In this document: piece after piece, positions 31,566 to 51,855 of the stretch | Position numbering within the stretch: position 1 is the first letter of the stretch | Layout of the letters: each line of letters starts with the position of its first letter | Assembly: GCA_014879445.1 (NCBI GenBank) | Contig: JACSSC010000026.1 | Span: 66,033-126,972 of the forward strand | Source: Candidatus Competibacteraceae bacterium | Lineage (GTDB): Bacteria > Bacteroidota > Bacteroidia > CAIKAF01 | Reading direction: 5' to 3' | Length of the DNA stretch: 60,940 nt | Made by a program: the position numbers and the translations under genes | The notes under the pieces: generated by a model | What the model was told of the DNA's origin: nothing | The model's database searches: none | The model's input: the letters and a program-made list of their open reading frames with translations, nothing else

Positions 31566-32138
31566 TTATCCAAACAATCCGGCAAACCCCATAAACGCAA
31601 GCGAAATAATACCGGCAATTATTAAATTAAGAGCAGCGCCACGAACCAATCTTGGGATTTGCAATATTCGTGTTTCTTCGCGAACGCCAGCCAATAATAC
31701 CAACGCCAGTGTAACGCCTAATCCGGCTCCAATAGCATAAATCAATCCTTCCAAAAAACCATATCCCTTATTGGTTGAAAAAAGTGCCAATCCTAAAATC
31801 GCACAATTGGTGGTAATGAGCGGAAGAAAGATACCAAGAGCTTTAAACAATTCCGGGCTGAGTTTTTTAATCGCCATTTCCACAAATTGCACAGCGCTTG
31901 CAATAACAATAATAAAGCTAATAAGACGCAAATACGGTGCATGTATCAATACCCATGTATTCAGCGCATAGGATGCCAATGCTGTGATAACCATAACAAA
32001 GATGTTTGCCAATCCCAAACGAAACGCCGTTTGTAATTGTGCAGAAACCCCCAAAAATGGGCATAAGCCCAAAAACATGGAAAGCGTAAAATTATTTACT
32101 AATAATGCAGAAATAAAAATCCAAATTAACTCGTTCAT
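31566..32138 (-). CDS. rnfA: Rnf electron transport complex subunit A
   Basis: 190 residues with six membrane helices, the RnfA/NqrE type: LVNNFTLSMFLGLCPFLGVS near the N-terminus and ITTNCAILGLALF in the middle, each with the conserved Cys that bind the intramembrane Fe-S cluster together with RnfE. The start overlaps the rnfE stop (ATGA). Rnf couples electron flow between ferredoxin and NAD to pumping of Na+ or H+. Confidence 0.95.
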   Translation of the reverse strand: MNELIWIFISALLVNNFTLSMFLGLCPFLGVSAQLQTAFRLGLANIFVMVITALASYALNTWVLIHAPYLRLISFIIVIASAVQFVEMAIKKLSPELFKALGIFLPLITTNCAILGLALFSTNKGYGFLEGLIYAIGAGLGVTLALVLLAGVREETRILQIPRLVRGAALNLIIAGIISLAFMGFAGLFG

Positions 32139-32773
32139 GCTGTTTTGCTTCTTTTTTGTTTGTTGCGTTCAGTCATCCAATTAAAAAATAACAGTAGAAA
32201 TCCCAAACTAAAAAAACCACCTGGTGGCAAAATCATAATAATCCAGGGCTCAAAACTTTTTCCAAAAAGATCAACTGCAAAAATTGAACCGTTGCCCAAG
32301 ACCTCACGAATAATACCAATGCTAACTAGAGCAAATGTAAATCCGGCGCTCATGCCTGCCGCATCAATAATTGACATACCAATATTGTTTTTACTTGCAA
32401 AAGCTTCCTGACGTCCCAAGATAAGGCAATTTACAACAATGAGCGCAATAAAAGCACCAAGCTCCTTGTGGATATCGGGCAAAAACGCTTCCAGTACAAA
32501 ATCAATAACCGTAACGAATGTGGCAATAATAACGATGTAAGTAGTGATGCGAACTTGTTTGGGTATTACTTTGCGTAATAATGACACTAAAATGCTAGAA
32601 CAAACAAGCACGAATGTAGTAGCCAACCCCATCGCTAAACCATTAATGGCGCTATTGGTAACAGCTAAGGCAGGGCACATTCCCAGCAATGCCACAAAAA
32701 CGGGATTTTCTTTCCACAACCCCTTAATAAATTCAGCCGCTACCCGGCTTTTTTCTGTTGACATATCACTCAT
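32135..32773 (-). CDS. rnfE: Rnf electron transport complex subunit E
   Basis: 212 residues, six membrane helices. Conserved segments VFVALLGMCPALAVTNSA and ALIVVNCLILGRQEAFASKN contain the two Cys that share a [2Fe-2S] centre with RnfA. Overlaps rnfG by eight bases and rnfA by four. Confidence 0.95.
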   Translation of the reverse strand: MSDMSTEKSRVAAEFIKGLWKENPVFVALLGMCPALAVTNSAINGLAMGLATTFVLVCSSILVSLLRKVIPKQVRITTYIVIIATFVTVIDFVLEAFLPDIHKELGAFIALIVVNCLILGRQEAFASKNNIGMSIIDAAGMSAGFTFALVSIGIIREVLGNGSIFAVDLFGKSFEPWIIMILPPGGFFSLGFLLLFFNWMTERNKQKRSKTA

Positions 32774-33464
32774 CTTTTGCAGGTGTTGAAATTTGATTTT
32801 CGTTTAAATATGCTTCAATTGCCGTTTTCCACTTGGTCAGATTTTTATTTAAAAGTCGAACTACTGCCTTTGAAGAAATAGTAGCGCCGGTAATGGCTTC
32901 CACTTCGTTGGGATTTTGTTTTTCGCCCTTTTTAACGGGTACTATTTCGGGCTCAACAGCCAGTTGTGTAAAGTTCATTACAAAGGCCTCATCTTTAAAA
33001 ATTTTATCGCCTAATCCTGGGGTTTCTTTACACTGCAACACTTCATAACCGATCACCATTTTTCCTACTGCATCATATCCAAAAAGAACACCTATGATAT
33101 CTTGAAAGCCGGGCTCCCCTCCATGAATTGCCACGCCGGTAAACTCTCCATTATCATTCATCCCAAAAAAAATTCGCTCAGGTTCTTCGCCTTTTTTGGA
33201 TTCAGGGCTGGGATTATATTCGGCTAATTTGCCATTATTGTCCAAAGCCAATGTTTTGAACGTCGTAGTGCCTGGCAATACTTTAAAGATGGCTTTTTTT
33301 AGTGCTTCGGCTTTATTATTCTCAATAATCGGTTTTGTAAATAAAAAAACGCCCACCAAAATTAATCCCGACATAAATCCAGCAAACCCGAGCGTGAAAA
33401 TCAATCGAAACGAACTGGGTTCTTTCTCTGCACCTTCTTCAATCATTTTTTCTTCCTTACTCAT
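32766..33464 (-). CDS. rnfG: Rnf electron transport complex subunit G (FMN-binding)
   Basis: 232 residues with one N-terminal membrane helix (LIFTLGFAGFMSGLILVGVFLF) and an outward-facing FMN-binding domain. The covalent flavin site is EAITGATISSKAVVRLLN, with the Thr/Ser of GATIS as attachment point; the ETPGLGDKI motif of the family is also present. Overlaps rnfD by four bases. Confidence 0.94.
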   Translation of the reverse strand: MSKEEKMIEEGAEKEPSSFRLIFTLGFAGFMSGLILVGVFLFTKPIIENNKAEALKKAIFKVLPGTTTFKTLALDNNGKLAEYNPSPESKKGEEPERIFFGMNDNGEFTGVAIHGGEPGFQDIIGVLFGYDAVGKMVIGYEVLQCKETPGLGDKIFKDEAFVMNFTQLAVEPEIVPVKKGEKQNPNEVEAITGATISSKAVVRLLNKNLTKWKTAIEAYLNENQISTPAKDE

Positions 33465-34465
33465 TTGTACCCGTATGGTTTAATTTTAGTAAAACGATTA
33501 ATTAAGGGTGTGGCTGCATTCATCAACAGAATAGCATACATTACACCTTCGGGCAAGCCACCCCAAATACGAATCAACACTACAAAAAACCCGATGCCCA
33601 AGCCGTATATCCAAAGGCCTTTTGGCGTAACCGGCGATGTAACCAAATCGGTAGCCATATAAATGGTTCCTAACAGAAGTCCACCAGAAAAAATCATAAA
33701 CAATGGCGAGGGATATTGTTCTGGATTGATAAGAAAAAACATACCTGAAAAAACGGCAACCGTAAGCAGAATTGAAAGCGGGATACGCCAATTAATAATT
33801 TTTCGCCAAATCAAATATATGCCTGCTAAAAGAAAAAGCAGGGCACTTGTTTCGCCCAAAGAACCACCTGTGCTTCCTAATAATAAATCAATAATCGGTG
33901 TAGAAGTATGTTCAAATTTCATTTGAGCCAAGGGTGTCGCCGTGCTTACGGCATCTATGTTTTCACCCTGAAAAAAAGGCATCGCCAAATTGGTGCCACG
34001 GAATGAAAAATGTTGACCATTGGGAGCTGACCAGGTAGTAATCGCTGTTGGAAAAGATGCTTGTAAGAAAGCTCTGCCCAACAATGCAGGGTTGAACACG
34101 TTTTGTCCTAAGCCGCCCCAAATTAACTTACCAACGCCAATGGCAACAACCCCTCCCAAGAATGCCATCCAAAGCGGAAATCCTGGCGGAAGACATAAAG
34201 CCAAAAGCAAACCTGTAATTACCGCACTGCCATCTTTCAGCGAAGTCCATCGCGGTTGTGATATTGAAAAAGCATACTCTGTAACCAAACAACCGGCCAA
34301 AGAAGCAATCAAAACAGAAAGAGCTCCTAAACCAAAAAAATAATAAGCCGCCAAAACCATAGGAATAAGAGAAAGCACAACCTCCCACATAATACGTGGC
34401 GTACTGTCGGTACTATGTAAAAATGGAGATGTAGAAACGGTAATTATTTTCTCTTTATGCTTCAT
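33461..34465 (-). CDS. rnfD: Rnf electron transport complex subunit D
   Basis: 334 residues with about nine to ten membrane helices. The covalent FMN site is in DAVSTATPLAQMKF, matching the S(T)AT motif of RnfD/NqrB. N-terminal SPFLHSTDSTPRIMWEVVLSLIPM is typical. Part of the rnfBCDGEA set; begins 42 bases after rnfC. Confidence 0.95.
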   Translation of the reverse strand: MKHKEKIITVSTSPFLHSTDSTPRIMWEVVLSLIPMVLAAYYFFGLGALSVLIASLAGCLVTEYAFSISQPRWTSLKDGSAVITGLLLALCLPPGFPLWMAFLGGVVAIGVGKLIWGGLGQNVFNPALLGRAFLQASFPTAITTWSAPNGQHFSFRGTNLAMPFFQGENIDAVSTATPLAQMKFEHTSTPIIDLLLGSTGGSLGETSALLFLLAGIYLIWRKIINWRIPLSILLTVAVFSGMFFLINPEQYPSPLFMIFSGGLLLGTIYMATDLVTSPVTPKGLWIYGLGIGFFVVLIRIWGGLPEGVMYAILLMNAATPLINRFTKIKPYGYK

Positions 34466-34507: not shown

Positions 34508-35851
34508 TTATCCTGCTTTTTCCTTTGCTTTCTTTTCTCTGAGCAATCCCTTAGCAACCCTAAAGCTCTGTACTAAAGGTATCCCTGACGGGCAAACAAA
34601 TGAGCAGCTTCCACACTCAAAACAATCAAAAACATAATTCTCTTCCATTTCATCCCACAAATCATTTTTGGCAAGCAGGCCTAATAACGATGGATTCAGA
34701 TGCATCGGACATGCATCTATACATTTTCCACATCGTATGCAACTATACTCTTCCATGGGCTTCACCTCCTTGTCCGTGAGGGCTAACAACCCTGATGTTC
34801 CTTTTACAACAGGCGTATGTATCGTCTTTTGCACTTGACCCATCATAGGGCCTCCAAGCAATATTCTGGATGCTCCGGGCTTTAATCCTCCACAATAATC
34901 GAGCACTTCACGAATGGGTGTACCTATCGGAACTAATAGATTTGCCGGACGATTTAGTGCTGTGCCTGTTACTGTAACAATTCTTTCAATTAATGGCATT
35001 CCTTTTCTGAACCAGTGGCTGATAGCAGCAATGGTTCCGATGTTGGAAACCAGCGATTCAACATCCAAAGGTAGTTTGCCGGATGGCACTTCCTTGTTAA
35101 GTACAGCCGTTATTAGCATCTTCTCTGCACCCTGGGGATACTTTACTTTCAGTGGAATAACCTCGACCGGTAATGTGCTATCTGCGATTTTGCGACCTAG
35201 TATCTCAATGGCATCCGGCTTATTGGCCTCAATTCCAATAAATATTTTTTCGGCTTTAATAAAGTGTTGCAAAATACCAATCCCGTCCACAATAGCGTCA
35301 GGTTGCTCAACCATGGTGCGATGATCTGAAGTAAGAAATGGCTCACATTCGCATCCATTAAGTATAATATAACGACATGTTTTGCCTTCTGGAATAGCAA
35401 ATTTAACGTGTGCAGGAAAAGCTGCCCCTCCCAAACCTACTAAGCCCGACTCCTGCACTGAGGCCAAAAACTCTTTCATGGACAGGGTTGTAGGATCAGG
35501 TGGCAAGGGTTGCGAAAACTGCTGTGTGGAATATGCGTCCGTTTTGATTCGAATACCTGGCACCATCTGCCCCGACGTGTTTTCAACCAAATCAACAGCT
35601 GTAACCGTGCCATCTACTGGAGCATGCAGCGCCACCGAAACAAAGCCCGTGCTTTCGGCAATCTTTTGACCGCGTAACACTTTATCACCCTTTTTTACGA
35701 TTGCTTTTGATGGGGCGCCAATATGCTGCCCCAATGGCAACACATATTCATCAGAAAAAGGCATCCGCTCAACCGGCAAATGCTCGGTAAACTCTTTGTA
35801 TTCATCGGGATGAATGCCGTGAGAAAAAGTATGAAGTTTTGACATGCCCAT
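34508..35851 (-). CDS. rnfC: Rnf electron transport complex subunit C
   Basis: 447 residues. GLGGAAFPAHVKF is the NADH/FMN-binding Gly-rich loop shared with NuoF, followed by ILNGCECEPFLTSDHRTM. Near the C-terminus are two cluster motifs, CIRCGKCIDACP and CFECGSCSFVCPSGIPLVQ. RnfC is the soluble NADH-oxidising or NAD-reducing subunit. Its start lies 16 bases after the giant PFOR-like gene, so that gene is inserted between rnfB and rnfC. Confidence 0.95.
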   Translation of the reverse strand: MGMSKLHTFSHGIHPDEYKEFTEHLPVERMPFSDEYVLPLGQHIGAPSKAIVKKGDKVLRGQKIAESTGFVSVALHAPVDGTVTAVDLVENTSGQMVPGIRIKTDAYSTQQFSQPLPPDPTTLSMKEFLASVQESGLVGLGGAAFPAHVKFAIPEGKTCRYIILNGCECEPFLTSDHRTMVEQPDAIVDGIGILQHFIKAEKIFIGIEANKPDAIEILGRKIADSTLPVEVIPLKVKYPQGAEKMLITAVLNKEVPSGKLPLDVESLVSNIGTIAAISHWFRKGMPLIERIVTVTGTALNRPANLLVPIGTPIREVLDYCGGLKPGASRILLGGPMMGQVQKTIHTPVVKGTSGLLALTDKEVKPMEEYSCIRCGKCIDACPMHLNPSLLGLLAKNDLWDEMEENYVFDCFECGSCSFVCPSGIPLVQSFRVAKGLLREKKAKEKAG

Positions 35852-35867: not shown

Positions 35868-38800
35868 TTACTGACGATTTGCTATTGATAATTCCACAAG
35901 TTTATTTTTCAATTTTTCGCGAACACTAAGCAGATATTCTTGCTCTAATTGTTGAATGCGTGATTCATATTCTTCAATCAGTTTTTTCTTTTCCATTTCA
36001 TATCCTGCTGATGCTTCTTTTTGTGCTAAAGCATACAACTTTTCTGGATACTCTGTCAAATCGCCTGAAAATTCTTTGAGCATTCTCCAATTTCGCATCA
36101 CTGACTCTGTTTGCATTATCACATATTGTGGAACCACATATCTGACAAGCTCTTTGCGTGCATTTAACCGATACAAAACAGGCACCTTCCCTTTGCGTTC
36201 GGCCTCAGATTGTTGCAAATACTCTTCAACTGCAACAGCACTACCTATACCGGGATGAAACAACGAAAACTCTTCAGAAGAGGTGCGATTGGCAAAACAC
36301 CAATCGGCCCAAGTAAGAACAGTTTGAAATTCTTTTTCCTCGTTATCCTCCATATATTTTAATGACACCCTTTGCCAATCTTGGTCGGGCGATGAGTTAG
36401 AGGACAATGAAATATGCGATGAAACCAACCGGCCTTCGCGCTGAGGATTATAGTCGGCATGTTGATATGAACGACTATGCATGGCAAGACGCTGCAAATC
36501 CCTAATTGAATAATCTGATAACAATTCTTTCTCTGCACCTGATTCTAGTAACCAAAATATTGCCGACCCCGATTGTTTGAATCCTGTCAGCAATCCATTA
36601 ATAAGATGACTTGTATCGGCTAACGAACTTTTTAGAATGTATGCCTGCTGTGTGGCTATTGCCGAATAAATCCAGGAATCTTTAGCTACAATCTCACCTG
36701 ATGTTTGCATTTGATTCGGTGAAATATCGTCTAATACAATCCACTTAACCGGCCATCCATCATGCAACATCTGCAATGTTGACCGCATATTCAATTTGGC
36801 CAACGACGAATAGCGAATTGCAACCAATACTGGAGGAACCTGCAATCGTTCTTCAGGAGTTAATCGCTCATAACTCAATGAAGCAATTTCTTCATCATGA
36901 ATAGCTGGATTATAACTTCCATCTACTTCCAATGCCGCCATGCGCATTAATTTCATGTTATCAATCACTGATTCGGTATGACCTGTAACCAAACCCAAAA
37001 TCATGTCGGGTGAAGATGCTGTCATTAGTGTTACGGGCGTTGAAAATGGGTTATTCGGATAAGTAGCCAACGATGACAATGATGCATCCAGTATCACGGC
37101 ATATCTTGCTCTACCCATGCCTGAGTTCCCTTCTGAAACCAACTGCTTTAAAGCTCCTAAGCTTTTTAACAATGAGGAACGACGCTCTAATAATGACTTG
37201 TTCAAACGAGTCATCGGCTGAATCTCTTTACCCTTTTCTATGATTTCATCAATACTTACTCTTTCACTTGAAACATCAGAAAACATTTTTGAAAACTCTG
37301 TAAACAAAGAGGGAGGAATGGCATCTGCCAACGCTTTCTTTATGCTATCTGATAATTGCTGACGTGCATGGTCTATTTGTGATAAAAAATTAGAAACAAC
37401 TGGTTGTACTGTGGCCTCGGCTACCGATGATACCAAATGTAACAACGTGCGTGCTACTGCGTCTTCATGGCTGCCGGCGCCATGCATTGTCATATAAAAA
37501 TTTCTACTTAGCATAATGGCTGCAGCAGATGAATAGTCGGCGTTGTCAATTAATCGTGCAATGGTATCTGATGATGTGTCGGAAAGTTGTTCCCAAATCG
37601 CATATTGTTTTTGCGCTTGTGCAAGAATTTCAGTTGTGATATCCTGCATAATAATGGCTTCTTCTTCACACACGCTCTCACATATCCCACAACCAATACA
37701 TGCATTTGTATCAACGCTCAAAGCGAACAATTCGCCGGTATCTTTTGCAACGGCCTGTGGGGTGCGGTAAAAAGTATCGGTAATCGAAATCTGAAGTTCT
37801 CCTATACTTTCCGAAATTGCATCACATTCATGTAAAAATCCGGTTCGCTTATCTCCATCCAGTGCTAGCTGATTGGCTAATTCAACACCGGCGGGTTTGA
37901 TAATTTCTTTCAAAAAAATCGGCCTATCGCTTTCGATCTTAGACGCCTCTTTATAAGCCAATTTAACGAATGCTTTCTGCATGGGCACTATTTGGGAAAT
38001 CATTTCGCCTCTTGACTGAGCAATCGAAATTCCCGATTTAATACATGCCTCCATACTTAAAGCAACTGATGGTAGAGCTGCGTGTGGGCAATACACAAAG
38101 CAGTCACCACAACCGGTGCATTTTTCTGTTTGTATAACTGGAATTTTGTTTTTATTCTCAGCTCCTCTGCCAAAAGATGCTGTTGATGATGGAACAACAG
38201 GAATGGCTTGCGACGGATCGCTAAACCAATCGGCAGAAGCGGTATCATAAAAGAAAACAGTATGATCAAAAAATTCAGACAACCTTGAATATGCCGGACC
38301 CTTATCGGTATGCTTACGTAATGAAAGAGGTATATGCTTGGATACAAATGTTGACTTGATTGATGTGTCGGCAAGCAGATTAACAGAATGTTCAGAAACA
38401 GAAGGATATTCGCGCTGCAGTTGTTTCATTCTCACATCGTGTTTGGGAAGTAAAGATGAAGAAATGGGAGTCATGACATCCATGCGGAGTTTCTGAGATT
38501 TTTCTTTTCTACTCCACCATTTTTCTACATATGCAGACAATTGGTTAGGGGCAAGAGAAGCGGAATAAAGACCGGTTGTAACAATCACAGGCAATCCAGT
38601 TAATAGAAGACATAGTTTGTCGGAAAGCAAATGATTGCTATTTGCCGATTGCTCTACAATGCCCAAATATTTAATATTAGACAACAAATCTGTCAACTGG
38701 TTAGGCAAAGGCAACAACTGATGAAGCGAAATTCGCCCATATGGTTCTTTGTCTTTTGCATTCAATTTTTTAAGTTGATTACCAAATGAAAGAATGGCTG

Positions 38801-39566
38801 CATCTTTTTTTTCAATCCCCTGTATTGTATATGCAGATAATATTCTTCCAGTAATTTTCTCCCATTCATTGGATGATTCAATAATAGCTGATTCAATATG
38901 GTCTGCAAAGAATATCGTTTGTGATGTAGCTTCATATGCTTTTCCTAATAATGACTTCTCTGCGCCTGTCATAACCGGAGTATCAGCACTAAACCAATTA
39001 GGAATACGACGGCGTGATTTGCCAAAAAACATTTGTTGGGCAGGTGTTGGTGAATCAATGCGGTGGTCAGACACTCCCACAAAGCTCATTAATTGTTCAT
39101 CTGAGGGCAATAATAATTCGGGCGATTCGATAGCCGATAATTCTGGAAACGCAACGATACCTGGCATAAGAAGCATTTCAGAAATACGATGCGCCAGCAA
39201 AATACGGTCAGATAGTTCTTGTGGCGTATCCGCCCAAAATAAAAAAGTATCGTTAGAAGCAAATCTTAATAAAGCATTTAGGCAACGTGAGCTAACCGTA
39301 ATAACTAATGGGGTATGATTTCGAGCCGCCTGGCGTAAAAACGGCTCACTTTCGGCAAACGAATCGTCAGAAAGTAATGTATTGGTTCGCATACCCGACA
39401 TAGCCAATCCGCAGCTAAAGGACAATGATGACGACGCATTGTACTGTATTCGTTTGCCATTTAAACGACAGGTTAACGACGACATCCGAACATTGCCTGC
39501 TATGCCATCAGAAACCGACTGGGTCGTTATTTTCCACGCTTCTACAAAATGATTCATCCTCTGCAT
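35868..39566 (-). CDS. Giant PFOR-like protein with two ferredoxin-type cluster motifs, inserted in rnf operon
   Basis: 1232 residues. Residues about 1-470 resemble domains I-II of pyruvate:ferredoxin oxidoreductase in layout (NHTPLVITVSSR; SRRRIPNWFSADTPVM; GRISLHQLLPLPNQLTDLL). A ferredoxin-like part follows with CTGCGDCFVYCPH (C483, C486, C489, C493) and CIGCGICESVCEEEAI (C623, C626, C629, C633), enough for two [4Fe-4S] clusters. The C-terminal half sits where the thiamine domain would be but shows no GDGxxxD-type thiamine-binding motif, and ends in a coiled coil (about 1170-1225). About residues 820-1130 are paralogous to the protein at 40514-43003. I infer an electron-transfer partner of Rnf that has lost oxidoreductase activity; not a known named protein. 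Confidence 0.8.
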   Translation of the reverse strand: MQRMNHFVEAWKITTQSVSDGIAGNVRMSSLTCRLNGKRIQYNASSSLSFSCGLAMSGMRTNTLLSDDSFAESEPFLRQAARNHTPLVITVSSRCLNALLRFASNDTFLFWADTPQELSDRILLAHRISEMLLMPGIVAFPELSAIESPELLLPSDEQLMSFVGVSDHRIDSPTPAQQMFFGKSRRRIPNWFSADTPVMTGAEKSLLGKAYEATSQTIFFADHIESAIIESSNEWEKITGRILSAYTIQGIEKKDAAILSFGNQLKKLNAKDKEPYGRISLHQLLPLPNQLTDLLSNIKYLGIVEQSANSNHLLSDKLCLLLTGLPVIVTTGLYSASLAPNQLSAYVEKWWSRKEKSQKLRMDVMTPISSSLLPKHDVRMKQLQREYPSVSEHSVNLLADTSIKSTFVSKHIPLSLRKHTDKGPAYSRLSEFFDHTVFFYDTASADWFSDPSQAIPVVPSSTASFGRGAENKNKIPVIQTEKCTGCGDCFVYCPHAALPSVALSMEACIKSGISIAQSRGEMISQIVPMQKAFVKLAYKEASKIESDRPIFLKEIIKPAGVELANQLALDGDKRTGFLHECDAISESIGELQISITDTFYRTPQAVAKDTGELFALSVDTNACIGCGICESVCEEEAIIMQDITTEILAQAQKQYAIWEQLSDTSSDTIARLIDNADYSSAAAIMLSRNFYMTMHGAGSHEDAVARTLLHLVSSVAEATVQPVVSNFLSQIDHARQQLSDSIKKALADAIPPSLFTEFSKMFSDVSSERVSIDEIIEKGKEIQPMTRLNKSLLERRSSLLKSLGALKQLVSEGNSGMGRARYAVILDASLSSLATYPNNPFSTPVTLMTASSPDMILGLVTGHTESVIDNMKLMRMAALEVDGSYNPAIHDEEIASLSYERLTPEERLQVPPVLVAIRYSSLAKLNMRSTLQMLHDGWPVKWIVLDDISPNQMQTSGEIVAKDSWIYSAIATQQAYILKSSLADTSHLINGLLTGFKQSGSAIFWLLESGAEKELLSDYSIRDLQRLAMHSRSYQHADYNPQREGRLVSSHISLSSNSSPDQDWQRVSLKYMEDNEEKEFQTVLTWADWCFANRTSSEEFSLFHPGIGSAVAVEEYLQQSEAERKGKVPVLYRLNARKELVRYVVPQYVIMQTESVMRNWRMLKEFSGDLTEYPEKLYALAQKEASAGYEMEKKKLIEEYESRIQQLEQEYLLSVREKLKNKLVELSIANRQ

Positions 39567-39582
39567 ATTCCTAATTCATTGT

Positions 39583-39606
39583 ATCTATATATGTGAACAT
39601 ATAGAT
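39583..39606. repeat. Inverted repeat between rnfB and the PFOR-like gene
   Basis: Eight-base arms ATCTATAT / ATATAGAT with an eight-base loop in the 49-base gap. No T tract follows on the minus strand, so it is more likely an RNA processing or stability element than a terminator. Confidence 0.45.
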
Positions 39607-39615
39607 TGGTTATTT

Positions 39616-40509
39616 TTATTGATAATACACATCTTCATCATAGTTCTGATTCTCAACTTTACCTATAGGTAAAGCTGATTTTTGATTGGGCACGAACTGC
39701 TTATCCTGATCTAACCATACAATAGCAGATGTTGGGCATCTCAAAATAGCTGTTTTAGATGCTTCGTTATTTCGAGAATAATCAACCACTGCGAGGTTAC
39801 TTTTTATTTCAATCACCCCTTTTGGCGAGTCAGCAGCACAGCGGCCACAACCATTACATGCTACCGAACATCGAGCCAATGCCTCATCGCCCTCAAGCAA
39901 TGATTTGCACTGCACAATAAGTTTTTGACTCACAGGCATCAATACAAACAATCCCTTCGGGCAAATATCAACGCAATCTCCACATGCAACACACTTGTCA
40001 ATATCCACTACAGGGAGTGAATTGGCGTTCATATGAATCGCATCAAAATCACAAATTACTTCACAATCTGCCAACCCTAGGCAGCCCCACGAACATTCTT
40101 TTACGCCGCCACTTACCAAAGCAGCGCCACGGCAAGTTTTCAAATTTCCAGAATAACCGGCCTTATTAGGCGATTCTTTTGCGCCACCTGCACATAAAAG
40201 ACGTGCATATCGTTTTTCCTCCTGCGAAGCAGAAACCCCTAGATACGTTGCAATGTTTGAAATGCCATCCGAAGAGCTCACTGTACATTTGCTAGGACTT
40301 AACTCATTATTAACCACTTTTTCGGCAAAAGCACGACAGCCGGGAACTCCACAGGCGCCACAATTTGCATTGGGTAACATGCTCTCCACCTTGTCTATTC
40401 GTGGGTCTTCTTCCACTTTCAGCTTTTTATATGCTACCGCCAAAATAGCGGCAAAGAGCAATCCTAAGCCGGTTAGAATAATTAACGATACAACAACTTC
40501 ATTGGCCAT
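39616..40509 (-). CDS. rnfB: Rnf electron transport complex subunit B
   Basis: 297 residues. One N-terminal helix (VVSLIILTGLGLLFAAILAVAYKKL), then the Fe-S domain NANCGACGVPGCRAFAEKVV, Cys-rich middle (CSWGCLGLADCEVICDFDAI), and two ferredoxin-type motifs (CVACGDCVDICPKGLF; CSVACNGCGRCAADSPKGVI). RnfB is the entry point for electrons from ferredoxin on the cytoplasmic side. It lies four bases after the 829-residue ferredoxin-domain gene and 49 before the PFOR-like gene. Confidence 0.95.
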   Translation of the reverse strand: MANEVVVSLIILTGLGLLFAAILAVAYKKLKVEEDPRIDKVESMLPNANCGACGVPGCRAFAEKVVNNELSPSKCTVSSSDGISNIATYLGVSASQEEKRYARLLCAGGAKESPNKAGYSGNLKTCRGAALVSGGVKECSWGCLGLADCEVICDFDAIHMNANSLPVVDIDKCVACGDCVDICPKGLFVLMPVSQKLIVQCKSLLEGDEALARCSVACNGCGRCAADSPKGVIEIKSNLAVVDYSRNNEASKTAILRCPTSAIVWLDQDKQFVPNQKSALPIGKVENQNYDEDVYYQ

Positions 40510-40513
40510 GCTG

Positions 40514-43003
40514 TCAGTTTAATGCTTCCGCTCTTTTTATCAAATCATCTAATCCCTGCTCGTTCGGATTTTGTGGTTTGCCGGGATGAATACATTTGGC
40601 TGGACATTTTTCGGCAACAGTTACAATTTGTGCAAAGGTTCCTTTAGATGGATCTTGAACAAATGCTTGTTTGTCGCCATTGTATTTGAACACACTTGGC
40701 AACTTTTCTATGCACTCGTTGCAAGATGTACAACGGAATGTTTCAACCCACACCTCACTACTCACCAACGATTCTTCCTCTTCGGCTGGAGCCGGAACAG
40801 GTGAGGATTCCGTTTGTACTATTGGCGTTGAAGCAACCACCGGCTTTGACGGCCTGCCTGAATTTGGCGCCACATCCCACGAATCTAAGTCAAGCAGCAA
40901 TCCTGCCAAACGATCCATTGCCAGGCCGGCTTCTTCTCTTCTCAATCTTTCTATTTCTTCGGCATGTGTTTGTTCTCGAATTGCCATTTCGGTTGCCTTT
41001 TCTTGATCCCATTCCTCCTGAGCAACAGCAATAGCTCGCTGTACATGATAACTGTTTACACCTCCCAATTCTTGAACAAATTGCCAAAAATCAATACGTT
41101 CTTTACAAACAGACACATTGCGAAAAGCAACAGCTGCTTTATATAGACGAGCGTTGGCATCACTAACCCAAATAAATGGAATTTTTCCAATCAGATTTTC
41201 ATGAGCGGCATTCAGATAATCTGTGATATACATCAAATCATCCGTATCATGTGCTGCATCAAGAACCTCCATGCTAAGTGTATTTGATACGCTAAGTAAT
41301 TCAAAATCGAGTGGTGAAAGTGCGATGCGAATTTTATTCGTCCCTGATTCAGATTTTACTTCTAAATCATGTACCGGCATTAATTTTTCAGGTTGCGGAT
41401 TTTGATTAATATCAAAACGACTGCCTAATCTTTCTCCAATGGAAGGATTATAAGTAAATCGAGGAAAATATCTTCCTTCAATAGCTGCATACAAAGAAAC
41501 ATAATGTAATGTAGTATCGGTTTGGATGGCATAAAGCACATTCCAAACTGCAGGCGTTGAAGAAACAAGCCCTTCAGCATAGGACTGATTCAGCAGCAAA
41601 GGGGTATCGTATGATCCCTGAAAAATATAAGGACTTCGATACGAGATAGCCAATGATGCAATTTCCTGACGATATCCACCTGCTGATGCATGTGATGTTT
41701 GAGACAAATCTTCCAAAGCATTTAATGAAATAATTTTAACAGGGAAATTACCTGAAAGCACTTCCGAAAACTGCGATAAAGAGGTTGTCATGAGTTGGCT
41801 TGCCATATCCACCACAATATGAAGTGGCATAATGGAAATTTCCTCTTCCGACATCCTTTCATATGTGAAGGTTCGGAAATACTGGCCATGAATTTGCTCA
41901 TCATACTTGTCTGAAATTTCAAGTTCTGCTATACGTAATGCAGCAATAAATGAAGCAAACTCGGAGCGTTGCTTTTGACATTTCGCCAATGCCAGTTTGC
42001 AAGGCGTTTCGGTTTCTTCAACAGAAGCATTGGTTAGAGCTGTTCTAAGGCCCAAGCGTGATGAAAAATCAGCCGAAACATAAACTGTGTCGGATTGATT
42101 TAGTATAAATGATTCTGCTTTTTTCAGACGTTCAACACAGTCGGCAATTCTCTTCATCCGATCTTCACTCAATCCTTTGGTTGCACTTGGCGGAATCATA
42201 CCCGAAAGTTTATCAAACTGAATCATTCCCATGCCAATCCCAAACTGTGAGCTTGATTTTTCCGGATTCTTTTCATCCTCCACCATCAGCATTTCCTGAA
42301 GAGAAAGCATTTTCTTTTTCAATAAATCCAAAAAAACTTGACGGTCTGCTTTGCAAACCCGTATTTGCTCATTGAGTAGAAGAAAAAGTGTAGTATGAGC
42401 AAACGGGATTAATGTGGATGAAATGTTTTGTAAGGCCATCTGATACTTTACAAGTTGTTCTCTGAATTGAGACGCCTCATCTCCCTTTATCTCTATCTTT
42501 TTCAATTCTGAAATGGCCTCCATCACAACAATACCAAAATCAGAAGACGTTGTGCCTGAACTAAGCCGGCCTCTGATAATATTCACCAAATTGGGAAGTA
42601 ATTTTCTAAGAAGTATCGCCTCGTTTTCTGCAAAAAGATCGTTAAAGATACCAAAAAGAAAATTCTTCACAGACAAGCCATACTTGCTCTTAGGCGAGGT
42701 AATGCAGAATGGATAATCCATTTCCGGGGCTTGGCCATTGAGATATGGAGCCAACAATGCAGGACTGAATCCTCGATTTTCAGAAAAATTTTCGCCGGTT
42801 AAAAAAAAGGTGCGAAGTTTCTTCCAGTATTCACGCGTTTCATTCTCTGATGCCGGCACACTTTCAGAAAGATGTGGAATAATCGCTTTCTCGGGCTTTC
42901 GAATATCCTCTACAGTTTCGATAGCCGGTTCTTCGTTTTTAAAAATATCTTCTTTAAAGAATTCGGTAAATGAAATTTCTTTTTCGCCTTTCATAGTATG
43001 CAT
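40514..43003 (-). CDS. PFOR-derived protein with C-terminal ferredoxin domain, paralogue of the giant protein
   Basis: 829 residues from the ATG at 43001-43003; a TTG at 43009 would overlap korB. The central part (about 310-650) aligns by eye with the giant protein at 35868-39566: ELEISDKYDEQIHG against ALEVDGSYNPAIHD, FTYERMSEEE against LSYERLTPEE, and RYFPRFTYNPSIGERLGSR against RSYQHADYNPQREGRLVSS. A charged coiled coil (EEIERLRREEAGLAMDRL) and a Pro-rich linker lead to a single-cluster ferredoxin domain, CTSCNEC then CPAKC (C758, C761, C764 and C800 or C804). No thiamine motif is seen. It lies between korB and rnfB, so it may bridge 2-oxoacid oxidation and Rnf. No named family is recognised. 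Confidence 0.78.
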   Translation of the reverse strand: MHTMKGEKEISFTEFFKEDIFKNEEPAIETVEDIRKPEKAIIPHLSESVPASENETREYWKKLRTFFLTGENFSENRGFSPALLAPYLNGQAPEMDYPFCITSPKSKYGLSVKNFLFGIFNDLFAENEAILLRKLLPNLVNIIRGRLSSGTTSSDFGIVVMEAISELKKIEIKGDEASQFREQLVKYQMALQNISSTLIPFAHTTLFLLLNEQIRVCKADRQVFLDLLKKKMLSLQEMLMVEDEKNPEKSSSQFGIGMGMIQFDKLSGMIPPSATKGLSEDRMKRIADCVERLKKAESFILNQSDTVYVSADFSSRLGLRTALTNASVEETETPCKLALAKCQKQRSEFASFIAALRIAELEISDKYDEQIHGQYFRTFTYERMSEEEISIMPLHIVVDMASQLMTTSLSQFSEVLSGNFPVKIISLNALEDLSQTSHASAGGYRQEIASLAISYRSPYIFQGSYDTPLLLNQSYAEGLVSSTPAVWNVLYAIQTDTTLHYVSLYAAIEGRYFPRFTYNPSIGERLGSRFDINQNPQPEKLMPVHDLEVKSESGTNKIRIALSPLDFELLSVSNTLSMEVLDAAHDTDDLMYITDYLNAAHENLIGKIPFIWVSDANARLYKAAVAFRNVSVCKERIDFWQFVQELGGVNSYHVQRAIAVAQEEWDQEKATEMAIREQTHAEEIERLRREEAGLAMDRLAGLLLDLDSWDVAPNSGRPSKPVVASTPIVQTESSPVPAPAEEEESLVSSEVWVETFRCTSCNECIEKLPSVFKYNGDKQAFVQDPSKGTFAQIVTVAEKCPAKCIHPGKPQNPNEQGLDDLIKRAEALN

Positions 43004-43005
43004 AA

Positions 43006-43962
43006 TCAATTGGTGTACTTGTCTAACATGTCGTTGATTGCCGCCGCTTTTTCGGCTATTGTCATGCCAAGATTATGTGCGCCATAATCATCGTAATTGG
43101 GGTTTTCAGCATTTTGATAGAAAAGACCGACTGGAATGGTTTCTTTCATTTCGGCATGCTCTCTAGCTTTATTAATATCAGAGGGGTCGTGTGATACCAC
43201 ATGCTTGAATGTTTTTTCAATAGCTGGATCAAGAACAATTCCATTGTCATGCTTTAACAAAGTAAGTGAGCCGGGATCGGCAGCAGCCGACTCATACAAG
43301 TCACGCATAAATACCGGACAGCGCTGAACGATACGGACAAAAGACAAGCCGGGATGATCTGCCGCTTTGCGAATAGTAGCATATAAATGCGCCGGATGCC
43401 AATCGGTAGTTTGAGCAACAAACGACACATTAGAAATGCTTAGTGTGGTTTGAATCGGATTAAGTGGGGGCAAAACAGACCCTTTAGGGTGAGTATTTGA
43501 AACAGTTCCGACACGGCTTGTAGGCGATGTTTGCTTTTTGGTCAAACCATAAATCGCATTATCAAACAATAGCACTACCATTTTCATGTTGTAACGAATG
43601 GCATGAACCCAGTGACCTGCACCAATTGAGCAGCAATCGCCATCTCCGGTAACAACAAACACGTTTAAGTCGGGACGACGAAATTTTACGCCACAAGCTA
43701 CTGGGAAAGCACGACCGTGCAGACCATGAAACCCGTATGTGCTCATATAGTGAGGGAAACGGCTGCTACAACCGATTCCAGACACGAATACCGTTTTTTC
43801 AGGAGCATATTGTTTGTCTTTACATACTTTGTGTACTGTTGACAATATGGAATGCCCGCCACACCCAGGACACCAGCGTGCTGCATTTTTTGCATAATCA
43901 TCAGCGCCCAAATAGGTTTCTGGCATGGGTATAGAACAAAGATCCGGTTTTAATCCAAACAT
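43006..43962 (-). CDS. korB: 2-oxoacid:ferredoxin oxidoreductase beta subunit
   Basis: 318 residues. RWCPGCGGHSILSTVHK holds the first Cys of the proximal [4Fe-4S] cluster, and VVTGDGDCCSIGAGHWVHAIRYNMKMVVLLFDNAIYGLTKKQTSPT is the thiamine-diphosphate and Mg site. The GLTKxQxSPT signature fits the 2-oxoglutarate type more than pyruvate. In Thauera the korAB pair in the benzoyl-CoA cluster regenerates reduced ferredoxin for the reductase; the location here says the same. The korA gene ends 39 bases upstream and the ferredoxin-domain gene starts two bases downstream. Confidence 0.9.
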   Translation of the reverse strand: MFGLKPDLCSIPMPETYLGADDYAKNAARWCPGCGGHSILSTVHKVCKDKQYAPEKTVFVSGIGCSSRFPHYMSTYGFHGLHGRAFPVACGVKFRRPDLNVFVVTGDGDCCSIGAGHWVHAIRYNMKMVVLLFDNAIYGLTKKQTSPTSRVGTVSNTHPKGSVLPPLNPIQTTLSISNVSFVAQTTDWHPAHLYATIRKAADHPGLSFVRIVQRCPVFMRDLYESAAADPGSLTLLKHDNGIVLDPAIEKTFKHVVSHDPSDINKAREHAEMKETIPVGLFYQNAENPNYDDYGAHNLGMTIAEKAAAINDMLDKYTN

Positions 43963-44001: not shown

Positions 44002-45897
44002 TTATTTGATGTTCAATTCTTGTTTAATCATATCGAGCACTTTGCCCGGGCTCATGGGCTGTCCGTACACATTACTGAAACAATCAATATCCATGAGTGT
44101 CTGTGCTCGCAGATACCAAGCAAGTTGAGCATAACGACGATTTTCTGGTGTAATCATCGGATCGCCCAGCTTATCGCTGTAATTAATTTCAACGGTCATT
44201 ACTTTTTTGAATCGGCTGAAAATTTCTTTCAGTCCCGGCTCTAGCGGGAACAAGAATCGCAAGTGCAAAGCACTTACTTTGGCGCCCATTGCTCTGGCTT
44301 TTTCAACTGCTTCATCAATAGCCCCCAAAGTTGACCCCCATCCTACAATCAACAAATCACCTGTTTCGTCTCCGTTAATGGTTGGCTTTTTCAGTGTTTG
44401 CTGAAATGCTGCCATCTTTCTGCTTCGAGCTTCCATGCTGCGCTGATTGCTATCCGGCTCATACGCCACACGGCTTTTTTCATCATGCGCCAATCCTGTA
44501 AGTGTGTACATGCCGTTTTTCTGACCCGGAATCGGACGCTTGCTCAAACCATTCTCGGCATTCCATTCATAAGGTCTTACATCTTCCTTCCAAGGACTTT
44601 GGTCTATAGGTCCAGCAAACCATTCCTGATTAATTTTAGGGCGCGGAAATGGTTGTACGCCAGTCGCTAAATTGGCATCTGTAAGCAAGATAACCGGTGT
44701 GCGGAATGCTTCAGCCAATTTACGGGCCAAAATCACGAAATGAAAACACTCTTCAATAGTAGCAGGCGCCAAAATAATTTTGGGTGCATCGCCGGTTTCC
44801 GCAAACAATGCAGCCAATAAATCACCTTGCTCTACTTTGGTTGGCAATCCGGTTGATGGCCCACCACGCTGTACATTTACAATTACTAAGGGCACCTCCG
44901 CCATAACAGCCAGCCCGATAAATTCTGTTTTTAAAGCCAACCCGGGCCCCGAAGTAATGGTAATGGCTGTTTTGCCGGCATATGAAGCGCCTATGGCAAA
45001 GCCAATGGCAGCAATTTCATCCTCTGCCTGATGCACAACACCTCCTGCCTTTTCAAAATAATCTGCCAAATGATGTGATGCCGAAGTAGCCGGAGTAATA
45101 GGATACATGGAGCAAAGTTCAATACCTGATGCCATGGTTCCAAAACTAATGGCTTCATTTCCGTTCATCACCACCTGATCTTCTGCAACAGCCATGGCCG
45201 GTATCTCATAATTAAAATCTAGATTTTCTTTAGCCCAGTTATATCCTGAATCAAATAAGGCAATATTGCTATCAATAATCTTTTGGGCTTTCTTTCTGAA
45301 AATACCCTTAATCTGATCATGTGATTTCTGAACTTCGCGTCCATAGATATAACAAATCATACCCAAAACCCACATGTTTTTTCCTTTTTGGGCATCACGT
45401 ACAATCTTTAAACACTCCACCTCCATCGGAATTTCAATAATTTGATAGCCGCGTTCTTTAAATTCTGCCAACGCTTCAGCATACTGTTTGCGAATGTTTT
45501 CCTGTTCACTTTGCGCCCATTTATTTTCAATCAACAAAACAGTACCCTCTTTATAGGCCTGTTGTGAAATTCGCCCAAAAAGTACCTGCTCGTTAAGTGC
45601 TACTACCAAGTGCGCCTGATCGCCCATATTGGTTACTTTCTTTGATCCTACTCGGACGCGAATACCTGACGCTCCTTCGCGTGAACGAGCGGGGGGCTGA
45701 ATTTCTGCCGGAATAATCTCTACTGTCCATACTCCATTTCCCATTTTAGCCGAAATGGCGCCAAAACTCTGTCCACATTTTTGTGCGCCCTCTCCCGAGT
45801 CGCTCACAATTTCCACAATGGCCTCATCAATAATTACTGGCGATGTGCCTTTCGCTGATGTGTTTTTTTCCTTAGCGGATGTTGCTGCTTTTTCCAT
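44002..45897 (-). CDS. korA: 2-oxoacid:ferredoxin oxidoreductase, fused gamma-alpha subunit
   Basis: 631 residues. The first 200 are the gamma domain (SGEGAQKCGQSFGAISAKMG; GSKKVTNMGDQAHLVVALN), fused to the alpha domain with GTMASGIELCSMYPITPATSASHHL, AIGFAIGASYAGKTAITITSGPGLALKTEFIGLAV and VNVQRGGPSTGLPTKVEQGDLL. The fused arrangement is the usual one in Thauera-type KorA and many bacteria. With KorB it oxidises a 2-oxoacid (probably 2-oxoglutarate) with CoA and reduces ferredoxin. An arylpyruvate or phenylglyoxylate substrate is an alternative in an aromatic cluster. Confidence 0.9.
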   Translation of the reverse strand: MEKAATSAKEKNTSAKGTSPVIIDEAIVEIVSDSGEGAQKCGQSFGAISAKMGNGVWTVEIIPAEIQPPARSREGASGIRVRVGSKKVTNMGDQAHLVVALNEQVLFGRISQQAYKEGTVLLIENKWAQSEQENIRKQYAEALAEFKERGYQIIEIPMEVECLKIVRDAQKGKNMWVLGMICYIYGREVQKSHDQIKGIFRKKAQKIIDSNIALFDSGYNWAKENLDFNYEIPAMAVAEDQVVMNGNEAISFGTMASGIELCSMYPITPATSASHHLADYFEKAGGVVHQAEDEIAAIGFAIGASYAGKTAITITSGPGLALKTEFIGLAVMAEVPLVIVNVQRGGPSTGLPTKVEQGDLLAALFAETGDAPKIILAPATIEECFHFVILARKLAEAFRTPVILLTDANLATGVQPFPRPKINQEWFAGPIDQSPWKEDVRPYEWNAENGLSKRPIPGQKNGMYTLTGLAHDEKSRVAYEPDSNQRSMEARSRKMAAFQQTLKKPTINGDETGDLLIVGWGSTLGAIDEAVEKARAMGAKVSALHLRFLFPLEPGLKEIFSRFKKVMTVEINYSDKLGDPMITPENRRYAQLAWYLRAQTLMDIDCFSNVYGQPMSPGKVLDMIKQELNIK

Positions 45898-45946: not shown

Positions 45947-47791
45947 TTATGTCGTTTGTTGTGTATTATATTGTGATTGTGCATGCTTCTTTTGGAATGC
46001 TTGTAATGCCATGATTGATGCCCCGAAAGAAACCATAAATTGAGGGTTATCCATCACTTCTATCTCTTTATTGAATTTTTCGGCCAACAGTATTTTTAAA
46101 TAGGGGTGATGCGCAATCACTCCGCCTATCATGTATGTGGGAATGCCGGAATCGAGACGCATTTTCGCCACTTTATTAGCGATGGAAATGTATATACCAC
46201 GAGCAATATCCTGCAACGACATGCCGTCAAATATCCAATTCATAATTTCTGTTTTGGCAAATACGGTACAAAAACTGTTTAATTCTTTATCATAATCAGA
46301 AAGCGATGCCAATCCACTCATTTCACTAATATTGATATGGGCTCGTTCGGCAATTTCAGACAAGAATGAACCGGTGCCGGCAGCGCACTTGTCATTCATA
46401 TAAAAATTCATCACATTGTTATCTGCATCGCAGCGTATCACTTTGATGTCTTCACCTCCAATATCTATGATGTTTTTTTCGCCGGAATGGTAATAAGAAA
46501 CCCCTGCAGCGGCACAGTTTATTTCCGTTTTTACAATATCGGTTTGCGTAAAATGCTTTCGTCCATATCCCGTTGCACAGCTATATTGAATATTAAAACT
46601 GGATGCAATGGCCTGCATCACCTGGTCTCTCGATTGCTTATCGCTGCTGAGTGTCGGCAGGAAATATCGGAATAGAACATGGCCTTTTTCATCAATCACT
46701 GTAAACTTTGTGTAGGCCGAGCCCAGGTCAATACCTAAATAAGCAGGGGTGTTTTTGAGTTGGGCAGGCAATATATTCTTGTCAGCTATGCCTTTTTCAA
46801 TAATCTTTCGATTGGCATCACCTGCAGCACCCGGCACACGCAACAAAATGTTTTTGTTGGTCATGGCTTTTACCAAGTTGGCAAGCGTTAAATTTAATGT
46901 TGTGCGGATATAATGCTTTCGACCATATTCCACAATTTTTCCGTTCAAATAATCTATCTCGGTGGGTCGGTTATTGATTAGGTCAACAGCTAAAGAAGGG
47001 AAGTGGTCCCCACCTTTTTTCAAATATCGAATACATTGACGCAAAAAGTCGTCAGGAAAAACTATTTTTTCGGCACGAGCTACTTCAATTCCTTCTTCTA
47101 TTACCTGCTCAATGAGTTCAAGCGTGTCACGATCGGCCATTGCTTCGGCCATCGTCAAACGACTTACCCCGCACAACGGACTTAACGCTGAGTTGAGAAT
47201 GGTTTTTTCCCAAGTTCGTTTCATCAATTCAAAAGAACCTACTTCATGGGTTTCAAGACCTGACTTTGTAAGAAGATTGGCCAACCCTTCGGCTTTATCT
47301 TTTGAAGTATCATTGATGCTCCCGACATAGTTGGGTGGTGTAAAGAAAGTTACACGTGCTGTATTGTGTGATATTGAATTTCCGGCAAAATTCACCACCA
47401 TGCGCAATGTTTTATTTTCGCCAAATCCTGCAACCAGCATCTGTTCAGTATCAATACCATTTTGCACAGAAACCGCCATCAGCTTTGGCGTAATCAATGA
47501 TTCTGCCTGCTTTACGGCTCCCGGCGTATGGGTGGTTTTTAATGCAAATAGTATATAATCGGCATCAAAATCTTTGGCATCTTCAATGCGCATAAAAACA
47601 TCATCAAATTGCGCTGAGGTATTCAATACATTCTCCAGCACGATTCCTTCAGATTTGATTTTTTCGGCTTTAGTTCTACTGGCTTCACAAACCGCCACAC
47701 GGCATCCTGCCTCCTTCAGCTTAACTGAAAGAATCATTCCGACAGGTCCTAAACCTATCACCAAAACTCGTATGGGCTCGATTTCTTTCAT
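45947..47791 (-). CDS. Fusion of ketopantoate-reductase-like dehydrogenase and BcrA/HgdC-type ATPase activator
   Basis: 614 residues, two intact modules. Residues 1-320 are a PanE-type 2-hydroxyacid dehydrogenase: GLGPVG (13-18), K85 in ALKTTHT, NGID (111-114), WEKTILNSALSPL with K196 and N200, and RPTEIDYLNGKIVEYG. Residues 350-600 are an ASKHA ATPase of the dehydratase-activator type: GIDLGS (353-358), DIGGED (443-448), and the two Fe-S Cys (C469 in KCAAGTGS and C508 in FCTVFA), 39 residues apart just as in BcrA and BcrD of this operon. The gene overlaps the preceding dehydratase-like gene by four bases. A 2-oxoacid-reducing and dehydrating branch is an attractive inference; I know of no characterised fusion of this kind. 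Confidence 0.85.
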   Translation of the reverse strand: MKEIEPIRVLVIGLGPVGMILSVKLKEAGCRVAVCEASRTKAEKIKSEGIVLENVLNTSAQFDDVFMRIEDAKDFDADYILFALKTTHTPGAVKQAESLITPKLMAVSVQNGIDTEQMLVAGFGENKTLRMVVNFAGNSISHNTARVTFFTPPNYVGSINDTSKDKAEGLANLLTKSGLETHEVGSFELMKRTWEKTILNSALSPLCGVSRLTMAEAMADRDTLELIEQVIEEGIEVARAEKIVFPDDFLRQCIRYLKKGGDHFPSLAVDLINNRPTEIDYLNGKIVEYGRKHYIRTTLNLTLANLVKAMTNKNILLRVPGAAGDANRKIIEKGIADKNILPAQLKNTPAYLGIDLGSAYTKFTVIDEKGHVLFRYFLPTLSSDKQSRDQVMQAIASSFNIQYSCATGYGRKHFTQTDIVKTEINCAAAGVSYYHSGEKNIIDIGGEDIKVIRCDADNNVMNFYMNDKCAAGTGSFLSEIAERAHINISEMSGLASLSDYDKELNSFCTVFAKTEIMNWIFDGMSLQDIARGIYISIANKVAKMRLDSGIPTYMIGGVIAHHPYLKILLAEKFNKEIEVMDNPQFMVSFGASIMALQAFQKKHAQSQYNTQQTT

Positions 47792-50753: not shown

Positions 50754-51855
50754 TTATAAATCTGCCTTGTGTTGTATTTCCTTTATGATTGGTAATGGTG
50801 TAAACATATAATCCCGCTGGAAGATCTGCTGTATAAATTCCTGTGGTTTCGCCTTGCGATAACACATTCAGCACCTGCTGTCCTGAAAGGTTATATACGG
50901 AAATCACACAGGGTTTATTATCAGAAAGAGCCACAGGAATTTTCACCTGAATAACAGATGATGCAGGATTAGGATACAAAACAGGTTGGTATGCCTGTGT
51001 TTGTTCCTCTTCAGCACTCATAGGCACTTTGATTACATAATGCTCGGTGGAGTTAATATAATTGCTGCCATCTGCATGCACAATACAGAGTGGATAACTT
51101 ACAATATTAGAATAATACATATAGTTATTGGATGTGTCGCGTGACAATTCCATGCTATACAGTACAATTGAATTAAAAATAGCAAATACGCTATCCACTT
51201 TAACGGCATGTTCGTGTATGCGCAACACATTGTTGAATGTTCCGGAGGGAATTATCAAGTCACCATGTGCATCGGAAGTTAGTGTTTTTGTAACCGTACA
51301 AGTGTATAGGGTATCCACGTCAGCGGGATTATTGTTCATCCATAATTGCCAACGGCTGGTATTGTTAAACACCGTGCCATAGGTGGCAGGAGCGCCTATC
51401 AGTAATTCTTGTGGTGTATAATACACGTTTTCTCCGGCAAAAGTTCCTCCATCAGCGCGAAATCCTTCAATCCAAAAACCTGTAGCATCTCTTCGCCAAA
51501 ACATATATCCGTTATTCATGCCCTGAGTACCAACGGGTGCGCCTCCGTGAAAAGTGCCATACAGCATGGCAGGTCCGTAGGTATAGTGAGATGATGCTGG
51601 GAAGTCGCCGGCATAAGGGGTATTGATTGTGCTATCATATGTAGGCACCTTGGGATAGTGACTGGCCAACATGCTGTAATCCCACACCTGAGCGCTTGGC
51701 CCGGGTGTGCCGAGTGGTACCTGAGTTGATGTATCATTGTTTACCACATAAGTAAAGCCCGCTTCGGGCAAATCGTTTTCTGTAATGGTAATTTGAGCAG
51801 GCAGCAGATAACTCATGCTAAATAATAACCCGGATGTAAAAATGACCTTTTTCAT
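50743..51855 (-). CDS. T9SS type A sorting-domain surface protein within the operon
   Basis: 370 residues with signal peptide (MKKVIFTSGLLFSMSYLLPAQ) and a C-terminal sorting domain (YQPVLYPNPASSVIQVKI; GLYVYTITNHKGNTTQGRFIIAR). The middle has no recognised motif. It lies 11 bases after bcrD and its end overlaps the ligase start, so it is an integral operon member even though all neighbours are cytoplasmic enzymes. A role at the surface in binding or taking up an aromatic substrate is possible but only from location; it may also be a chance insertion. Confidence 0.8.
   Translation of the reverse strand: MKKVIFTSGLLFSMSYLLPAQITITENDLPEAGFTYVVNNDTSTQVPLGTPGPSAQVWDYSMLASHYPKVPTYDSTINTPYAGDFPASSHYTYGPAMLYGTFHGGAPVGTQGMNNGYMFWRRDATGFWIEGFRADGGTFAGENVYYTPQELLIGAPATYGTVFNNTSRWQLWMNNNPADVDTLYTCTVTKTLTSDAHGDLIIPSGTFNNVLRIHEHAVKVDSVFAIFNSIVLYSMELSRDTSNNYMYYSNIVSYPLCIVHADGSNYINSTEHYVIKVPMSAEEEQTQAYQPVLYPNPASSVIQVKIPVALSDNKPCVISVYNLSGQQVLNVLSQGETTGIYTADLPAGLYVYTITNHKGNTTQGRFIIAR

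Follow-up and report, generated by a model that had tools for sequence, protein, structure and literature searches.

The Rnf complex is taught as an ion pump that is fed by free ferredoxin. The described proteins that are closest to the system analyzed here are the Rnf complex itself, PFOR (NifJ), the 2-oxoacid oxidoreductase KorAB and ferredoxin I of Desulfovibrio africanus. In a search of the open-access literature, no report of rnf operons with genes for PFOR-like proteins or KorAB was found. The rnf operons of Bacteroidota/Chlorobi-type and Calditrichaeota bacteria have been described, and the passages retrieved from these descriptions report no PFOR-like protein or KorAB (PMC3534657, PMC5317091). 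Here, we describe an rnf operon in a stretch of 60,940 nucleotides (the whole of it is called the window below), in which an initial annotation had pointed out two large redox proteins, termed A and B.

Genes of the operon

On the minus strand of the window, ten genes run from position 45897 down to 31566 in the order korA-korB-B-rnfB-A-rnfC-rnfD-rnfG-rnfE-rnfA (Table 1). Because the spacing between these genes is only -8 to 49 bases, they constitute one operon. The genes for A and B flank rnfB and separate it from korB and rnfC, exactly as the initial annotation stated.

Table 1 Features of the korAB-rnf operon in the window. Residue numbers refer to the encoded proteins.
Feature	Position	Strand	Description
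korA	44002..45897	-	2-oxoacid oxidoreductase alpha subunit with fused gamma domain; TIGR03710 above cut-off
korB	43006..43962	-	thiamine-binding beta subunit; PF02775, E 4e-26
Protein B gene	40514..43009	-	PFOR-derived pseudoenzyme, predicted KorAB partner; 4-base overlap with korB
B residues 358-666	41012..41938	-	degenerate PFOR domain VI, common to A and B
B C-terminal single-cluster ferredoxin domain	40604..40732	-	PF13370; Cys 760, 763, 766, 802
rnfB	39616..40509	-	20 of 20 cysteines invariant across A-type operons
Protein A gene	35868..39566	-	PFOR-derived pseudoenzyme between rnfB and rnfC
A residues 47-300	38667..39428	-	degenerate PFOR domains I/II; catalytic Thr and Glu gone
First 4Fe-4S motif of A, Cys 483-493	38085..38120	-	invariant in 13 of 13
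Second 4Fe-4S motif of A, Cys 623-633	37668..37700	-	invariant in 13 of 13
A residues 874-1184	36015..36947	-	degenerate PFOR domain VI; thiamine-site GDG and NTGGQ gone
rnfC	34508..35851	-	TIGR01945 over cut-off; complete
rnfD	33461..34465	-	same position in related operons
rnfG	32766..33464	-	same position in related operons
rnfE	32135..32773	-	same position in related operons
rnfA	31566..32138	-	same position in related operons

The catalytic residues of KorA are intact, and its PITP motif is invariant in 17 operon copies. The closest solved relative of KorA is 6n2n (E 1e-82), which is a 2-oxoglutarate:ferredoxin oxidoreductase; because of this match, the substrate of KorAB is probably 2-oxoglutarate. 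KorB has one 4Fe-4S cluster (C31, C34, C65 and C215), and these four Cys and the GDG motif are invariant in 18 copies. The RnfC of the window retains its two 4Fe-4S motifs as well as the glycine-rich stretch GLVGLGGAAFP. Across the operon copies, the thiamine motifs of KorA and KorB, the four cluster Cys of KorB and the cluster Cys of RnfB and RnfC have no exceptions. As judged from these residues and from the analysis of A and B described below, the operon encodes a single live 2-oxoacid oxidase and a complete Rnf, together with two PFORs that are dead.

Two other genes of the window are mentioned as separate observations. In one open reading frame (45947-47791, minus strand), residues 8-312 are a PanE/ApbA ketopantoate-reductase-like part and residues 352-595 are a BcrA/D-type activase ATPase, which is an unusual fusion. 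Amid the otherwise metabolic dehydratase/activase run on the same strand lies a gene (50743-51855, minus strand) whose product carries a type IX secretion sorting tail.

Proteins A and B and their relation to a long PFOR

Protein A has 1232 residues (ATG start, minus strand). Protein B has 831 residues if it starts from TTG and 829 residues from the ATG at 43003. The two proteins have in common a region of about 310 residues (A 874-1184 and B 358-666; 23% identity, E 2e-13), and their ends differ. A contains two CxxCxxCxxxC motifs, which start at residues 483 and 623, and B ends in a single-cluster ferredoxin domain. These features agree with the initial annotation, as does its statement that neither protein has a thiamine-binding motif: the thiamine domain PF02775 was matched by neither A nor B of the window, and the corresponding PFOR residues are missing in alignments with intact homologues. 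The Pfam search of A gave the two 4Fe-4S motifs and a sub-threshold match to POR_N (PF01855, E 8e-5), and that of B gave only the C-terminal ferredoxin I domain (PF13370, E 1e-7), of which the best solved relative is ferredoxin I 1dax. B did not match TIGR02179, the dicluster ferredoxin that represents the delta-type subunit of KorAB; its only such domain is the single-cluster one. The NCBIfam search gave no family above cut-off for A or B, and no curated family with an assigned function that covers A or B was found. AlphaFold models of A and B, made from two-row alignments (window and L004 sequences), had mean pLDDT values of 38.6 and 36.5, respectively, which are too low for use.

We built profiles from 13 A proteins and 13 B proteins and compared them with PFORs. 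Similarity over the full length was obtained with a long form of PFOR (E 7e-173 over 1305 columns for A; E 3e-102 for B), and the A profile also matched the solved PFORs (E 4e-72). The long PFOR has 1637-1686 residues and consists of domains I, II and III, the dicluster domain, domain VI and an extra C-terminal ferredoxin I domain. It is the nearest intact homologue of both A and B, and it is encoded at loci L015, L109-L121, L123 and L137, whose products are 50-67% identical to the member in genome G147. At every locus that carries it, the long PFOR gene is followed by rnfC, and rnfB lies directly ahead of it wherever the contig and the gene order permit; in G147 and G945, rnfB is located at the opposite end. 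Thus, A occupies the same slot between rnfB and rnfC as the intact long PFOR. Long forms of B (approximately 1270-1315 residues) align with the long PFOR over domains I-III as well, and the dicluster alone is missing. Therefore, B too derives from a whole PFOR. In a tree of domain VI, A forms one clade and B another (support 98/91). Because the branches of this tree are long, the exact branching of A and B from the long PFOR is uncertain. In G470 and in G624, an rnf operon or gene of the A type occurs alongside one of the long-PFOR type, and therefore the two types are separate systems.

Some of the long PFOR loci were observed to have a further component. At L015, L109, L116-L121 and L137, an intact PFOR of 1640-1670 residues with the C-terminal ferredoxin domain is encoded in an rnf operon together with a ferredoxin-NADP-reductase-like gene; this PFOR-Rnf-FNR module looks undescribed. 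In G743, a PFOR-like open frame of 1448 residues with an intact NTGG motif lies upstream of korA (L135 1-4347, plus strand).

The residues at the PFOR cofactor positions were tabulated for 14 long PFORs, 13 A proteins and the B proteins. All 14 long PFORs keep the thiamine residues, the four Cys of the proximal cluster, the eight Cys of the dicluster and the four ferredoxin Cys. In all 13 A proteins, only the eight Cys of the dicluster (domain V) are left, and the residues for thiamine, the proximal cluster and the C-terminal ferredoxin have been lost. In complete B proteins, the four ferredoxin Cys alone remain, and the dicluster, proximal-cluster and thiamine residues are gone; the B proteins without the ferredoxin Cys are contig-truncated copies and short forms beside an intact PFOR. 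The whole thiamine site (GDG and NTGGQ in domain VI; Thr, Glu and Arg in domain I) is present in 14 of 14 long PFORs and absent from 13 of 13 A proteins and from all B proteins. Similarly, PF02775 and the gamma domain III (PF01558) were detected in all 14 long PFORs versus none of the 13 A proteins. Thus, A and B retain clusters in a complementary manner, and the clusters that remain in them together make up the non-catalytic portion of the electron wire of the long PFOR. The profile comparisons and the lost catalytic residues show that A and B are homologous to each other, that both descend from a long PFOR, itself encoded inside rnf operons, and that both are catalytically dead. The idea of the initial annotation that they are PFOR copies turned into non-catalytic electron carriers or scaffolds is supported by the same evidence.

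Two explanations compete with this idea at the level of the residues. A and/or B might still be catalytic at the old site with another cofactor or substrate, since the profile comparison indicates that the folds of domains I, II and VI persist. However, A and B vary freely in the thiamine columns, and no conserved polar set has taken the place of the thiamine residues, so that continued catalysis is very improbable. According to the second explanation, A and B serve in structure or assembly, take no part in electron transfer and carry the clusters as leftovers. Their low overall identity and the loss of most PFOR motifs would suit such factors, but no residues of A and B are more conserved than the cluster Cys, which are invariant across phyla at 19-36% overall identity; we consider a purely structural role improbable.

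The rates of divergence point in the same direction as the cluster Cys. Between the window and G743, identity is 79% for KorA, 82% for KorB, 76% for RnfC and 87% for RnfA, and only 36% for A and 35% for B. The ferredoxin end of B, in contrast, is 68% identical. Therefore, the catalytic constraint is gone while the constraint on the cofactor sites is kept. The best conserved 50-residue blocks of A include those around the first cluster motif and parts of domains I and VI. This tempo is as would be expected for pseudoenzymes selected for their clusters and contacts.

In four operons that have an intact long PFOR, B is reduced and lacks the ferredoxin domain, which the PFOR possesses. This arrangement fits a shared assembly that needs one such domain. 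A strict rule of one ferredoxin domain per assembly was rejected, because in G147 the long PFOR is intact and B nevertheless carries a ferredoxin domain. At L110 (2689-4158), L111 (14233-15324) and L113 (11703-12704), B-like proteins of 334-364 residues (from likely starts) without cluster Cys are encoded between korB and rnfB, and the PFOR is intact.

Distribution of the operon in other genomes

The ten-gene order of the window is identical in G171 (L039), which belongs to another class of the same phylum, and in G689 (L134); in G743 it is spread over contigs. G689 and G743 belong to the window's class and to other families. At least seven Myxococcota genomes have the same ten-gene order (for example, G421, G477, G479, G492, G498 and G624), and the Myxococcales contig CALGHC010000182.1 carries the tail of B followed by rnfB, A, rnfC, rnfD, rnfG and rnfE. 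Because this order recurs in unrelated genomes, it is not due to chance. In the genomes of the window's own genus and family, A and B were not found, and none of the eight genomes searched from that genus and family has rnfC above cut-off. Therefore, the operon was probably acquired by horizontal transfer.

Wherever both flanks lie on the contig, A is located between rnfB and rnfC. B follows korB in 20 of the 20 operons first surveyed with korB on the contig, and in two operons found later. All Myxococcota genomes that bear A also have B (16/16), although B is present in only about 28 of 284 genomes; the hypergeometric p value for this co-occurrence is about 1e-18, uncorrected for kinship, with the genome lists of A and B matched by hand and many of the Myxococcota entries being draft assemblies with short contigs. 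The occurrence of A therefore depends on that of B. The association of the pair with rnf, which was raised in the initial annotation, holds for A. It does not hold for B, which adjoins korB in G200 and G535, where neither genome has rnfC above cut-off. B is primarily a KorAB partner and is present without Rnf in these two genomes.

Relatives of B and KorAB were also observed in other settings. In one Myxococcota lineage, a stand-alone B relative of 1306-1315 residues (degenerate domains I-III and VI, with the ferredoxin Cys) is encoded away from korAB (L106, L107 and L108), and at L107 and L108 its gene adjoins that of a RarA-like helicase. In G200, another 2-oxoacid oxidoreductase pair, which is divergent (29-34% identical), comes after korA-korB-B (L018 9793-12727, minus strand).

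The initial annotation had proposed a bridge that passes electrons from KorAB to Rnf or from Rnf to benzoyl-CoA reductase. For the second possibility, the module would send low-potential electrons derived from Rnf to the neighbouring benzoyl-CoA reductase/2-hydroxyacyl-CoA dehydratase system, genes of which are found immediately upstream on the same strand of the window. However, among 43 related loci with a length of 7 kb or more, not one has a relative of the window's dehydratase/activase genes. Therefore, a link with benzoyl-CoA reductase is at most a local add-on; a constant association with such genes was not found, and this part of the proposal has little chance of being right. A bridge from KorAB to Rnf is the best reading of the loci.

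Proposed electron path and comparison with known systems

We propose that A and B together link KorAB to the Rnf ion pump, serving both as an electron wire and as a docking scaffold, and we consider this rather likely. KorAB would perform the thiamine chemistry and hold the first cluster. B would dock on KorAB and offer a tethered ferredoxin domain; this docking is suggested by the position of B beside korB, also in genomes without Rnf. A, which is never found outside rnf, would dock on Rnf and offer two 4Fe-4S clusters. Electrons may then pass from the KorB cluster to the ferredoxin domain of B, the dicluster of A, RnfB/RnfC and finally NAD+, where the order of B and A is the presumed one. 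The path may also run backwards, in which case the ion gradient would drive reductive carboxylation. In either direction, little or no free ferredoxin would take part, its place being taken by the A/B chain. Operon membership alone does not prove contact: we infer physical contact, the order and direction of electron transfer and the substrate.

The strongest alternative is that the two halves work apart. B would be the electron-accepting subunit of KorAB, A would be an extra Rnf subunit, free ferredoxin would shuttle between them, and the genes would merely be co-regulated. Such an arrangement would account for the presence of B with KorAB in the genomes without rnfC, and in G147 B and the PFOR are at opposite ends of the operon. 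It would leave unexplained why A never occurs without B and why the clusters are retained in a complementary manner; moreover, A and B come from one PFOR, the parts of which would contact each other. We therefore regard separate halves as unlikely. The stand-alone long B-like protein of L106-L108, with no KorAB nearby, is also counted against coupling. Carrying the proposal of a KorAB-to-Rnf wire one step further, KorAB, B, A and Rnf may form a stable membrane-bound supercomplex, which would act as an ion pump with 2-oxoacid:NAD+ oxidoreductase activity, would use PFOR pseudoenzymes instead of a pool of free ferredoxin and would have evolved from an older PFOR-Rnf supercomplex. This extension is tentative, and we hold it to be somewhat doubtful. 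If the coupling is true, electrons from carbon oxidation are fed directly into an ion pump in some bacteria, with dead PFORs as the wiring.

Compared with the Rnf complex (rnfABCDEG; 7zc6, 9eri), the operon described here has all six canonical subunits with intact cluster Cys in RnfB and RnfC, but it adds the gene for a large PFOR-derived protein and the linked KorAB-B. KorAB resembles 6n2n/6n2o in its KorA sequence and in the intact thiamine and cluster motifs of KorB, whereas here it is encoded with a dedicated pseudo-PFOR partner that bears a tethered ferredoxin domain. This partner shares the korB-adjacent gene position of the delta-type electron-transfer subunit of KorAB but not its TIGR02179 sequence. 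The C-terminal domain of B is of the same type as Desulfovibrio africanus ferredoxin I (1dax; PF13370), although in B it is covalently tethered to a dead PFOR domain VI. Relative to PFOR/NifJ (1b0p/1kek, 6cin), A has the domain order I-II-V-VI and the same dicluster but is without the thiamine residues, the proximal cluster and the gamma domain III, and B is without the dicluster and carries a ferredoxin domain. The long PFOR shares the slot of A; however, it is one protein rather than two, its catalytic residues and four cluster sites are intact, and its members are 50-67% identical to that of G147, whereas A and B diverge strongly among themselves. The intact PFOR in this slot makes visible an evolutionary route from an enzyme to an adaptor.
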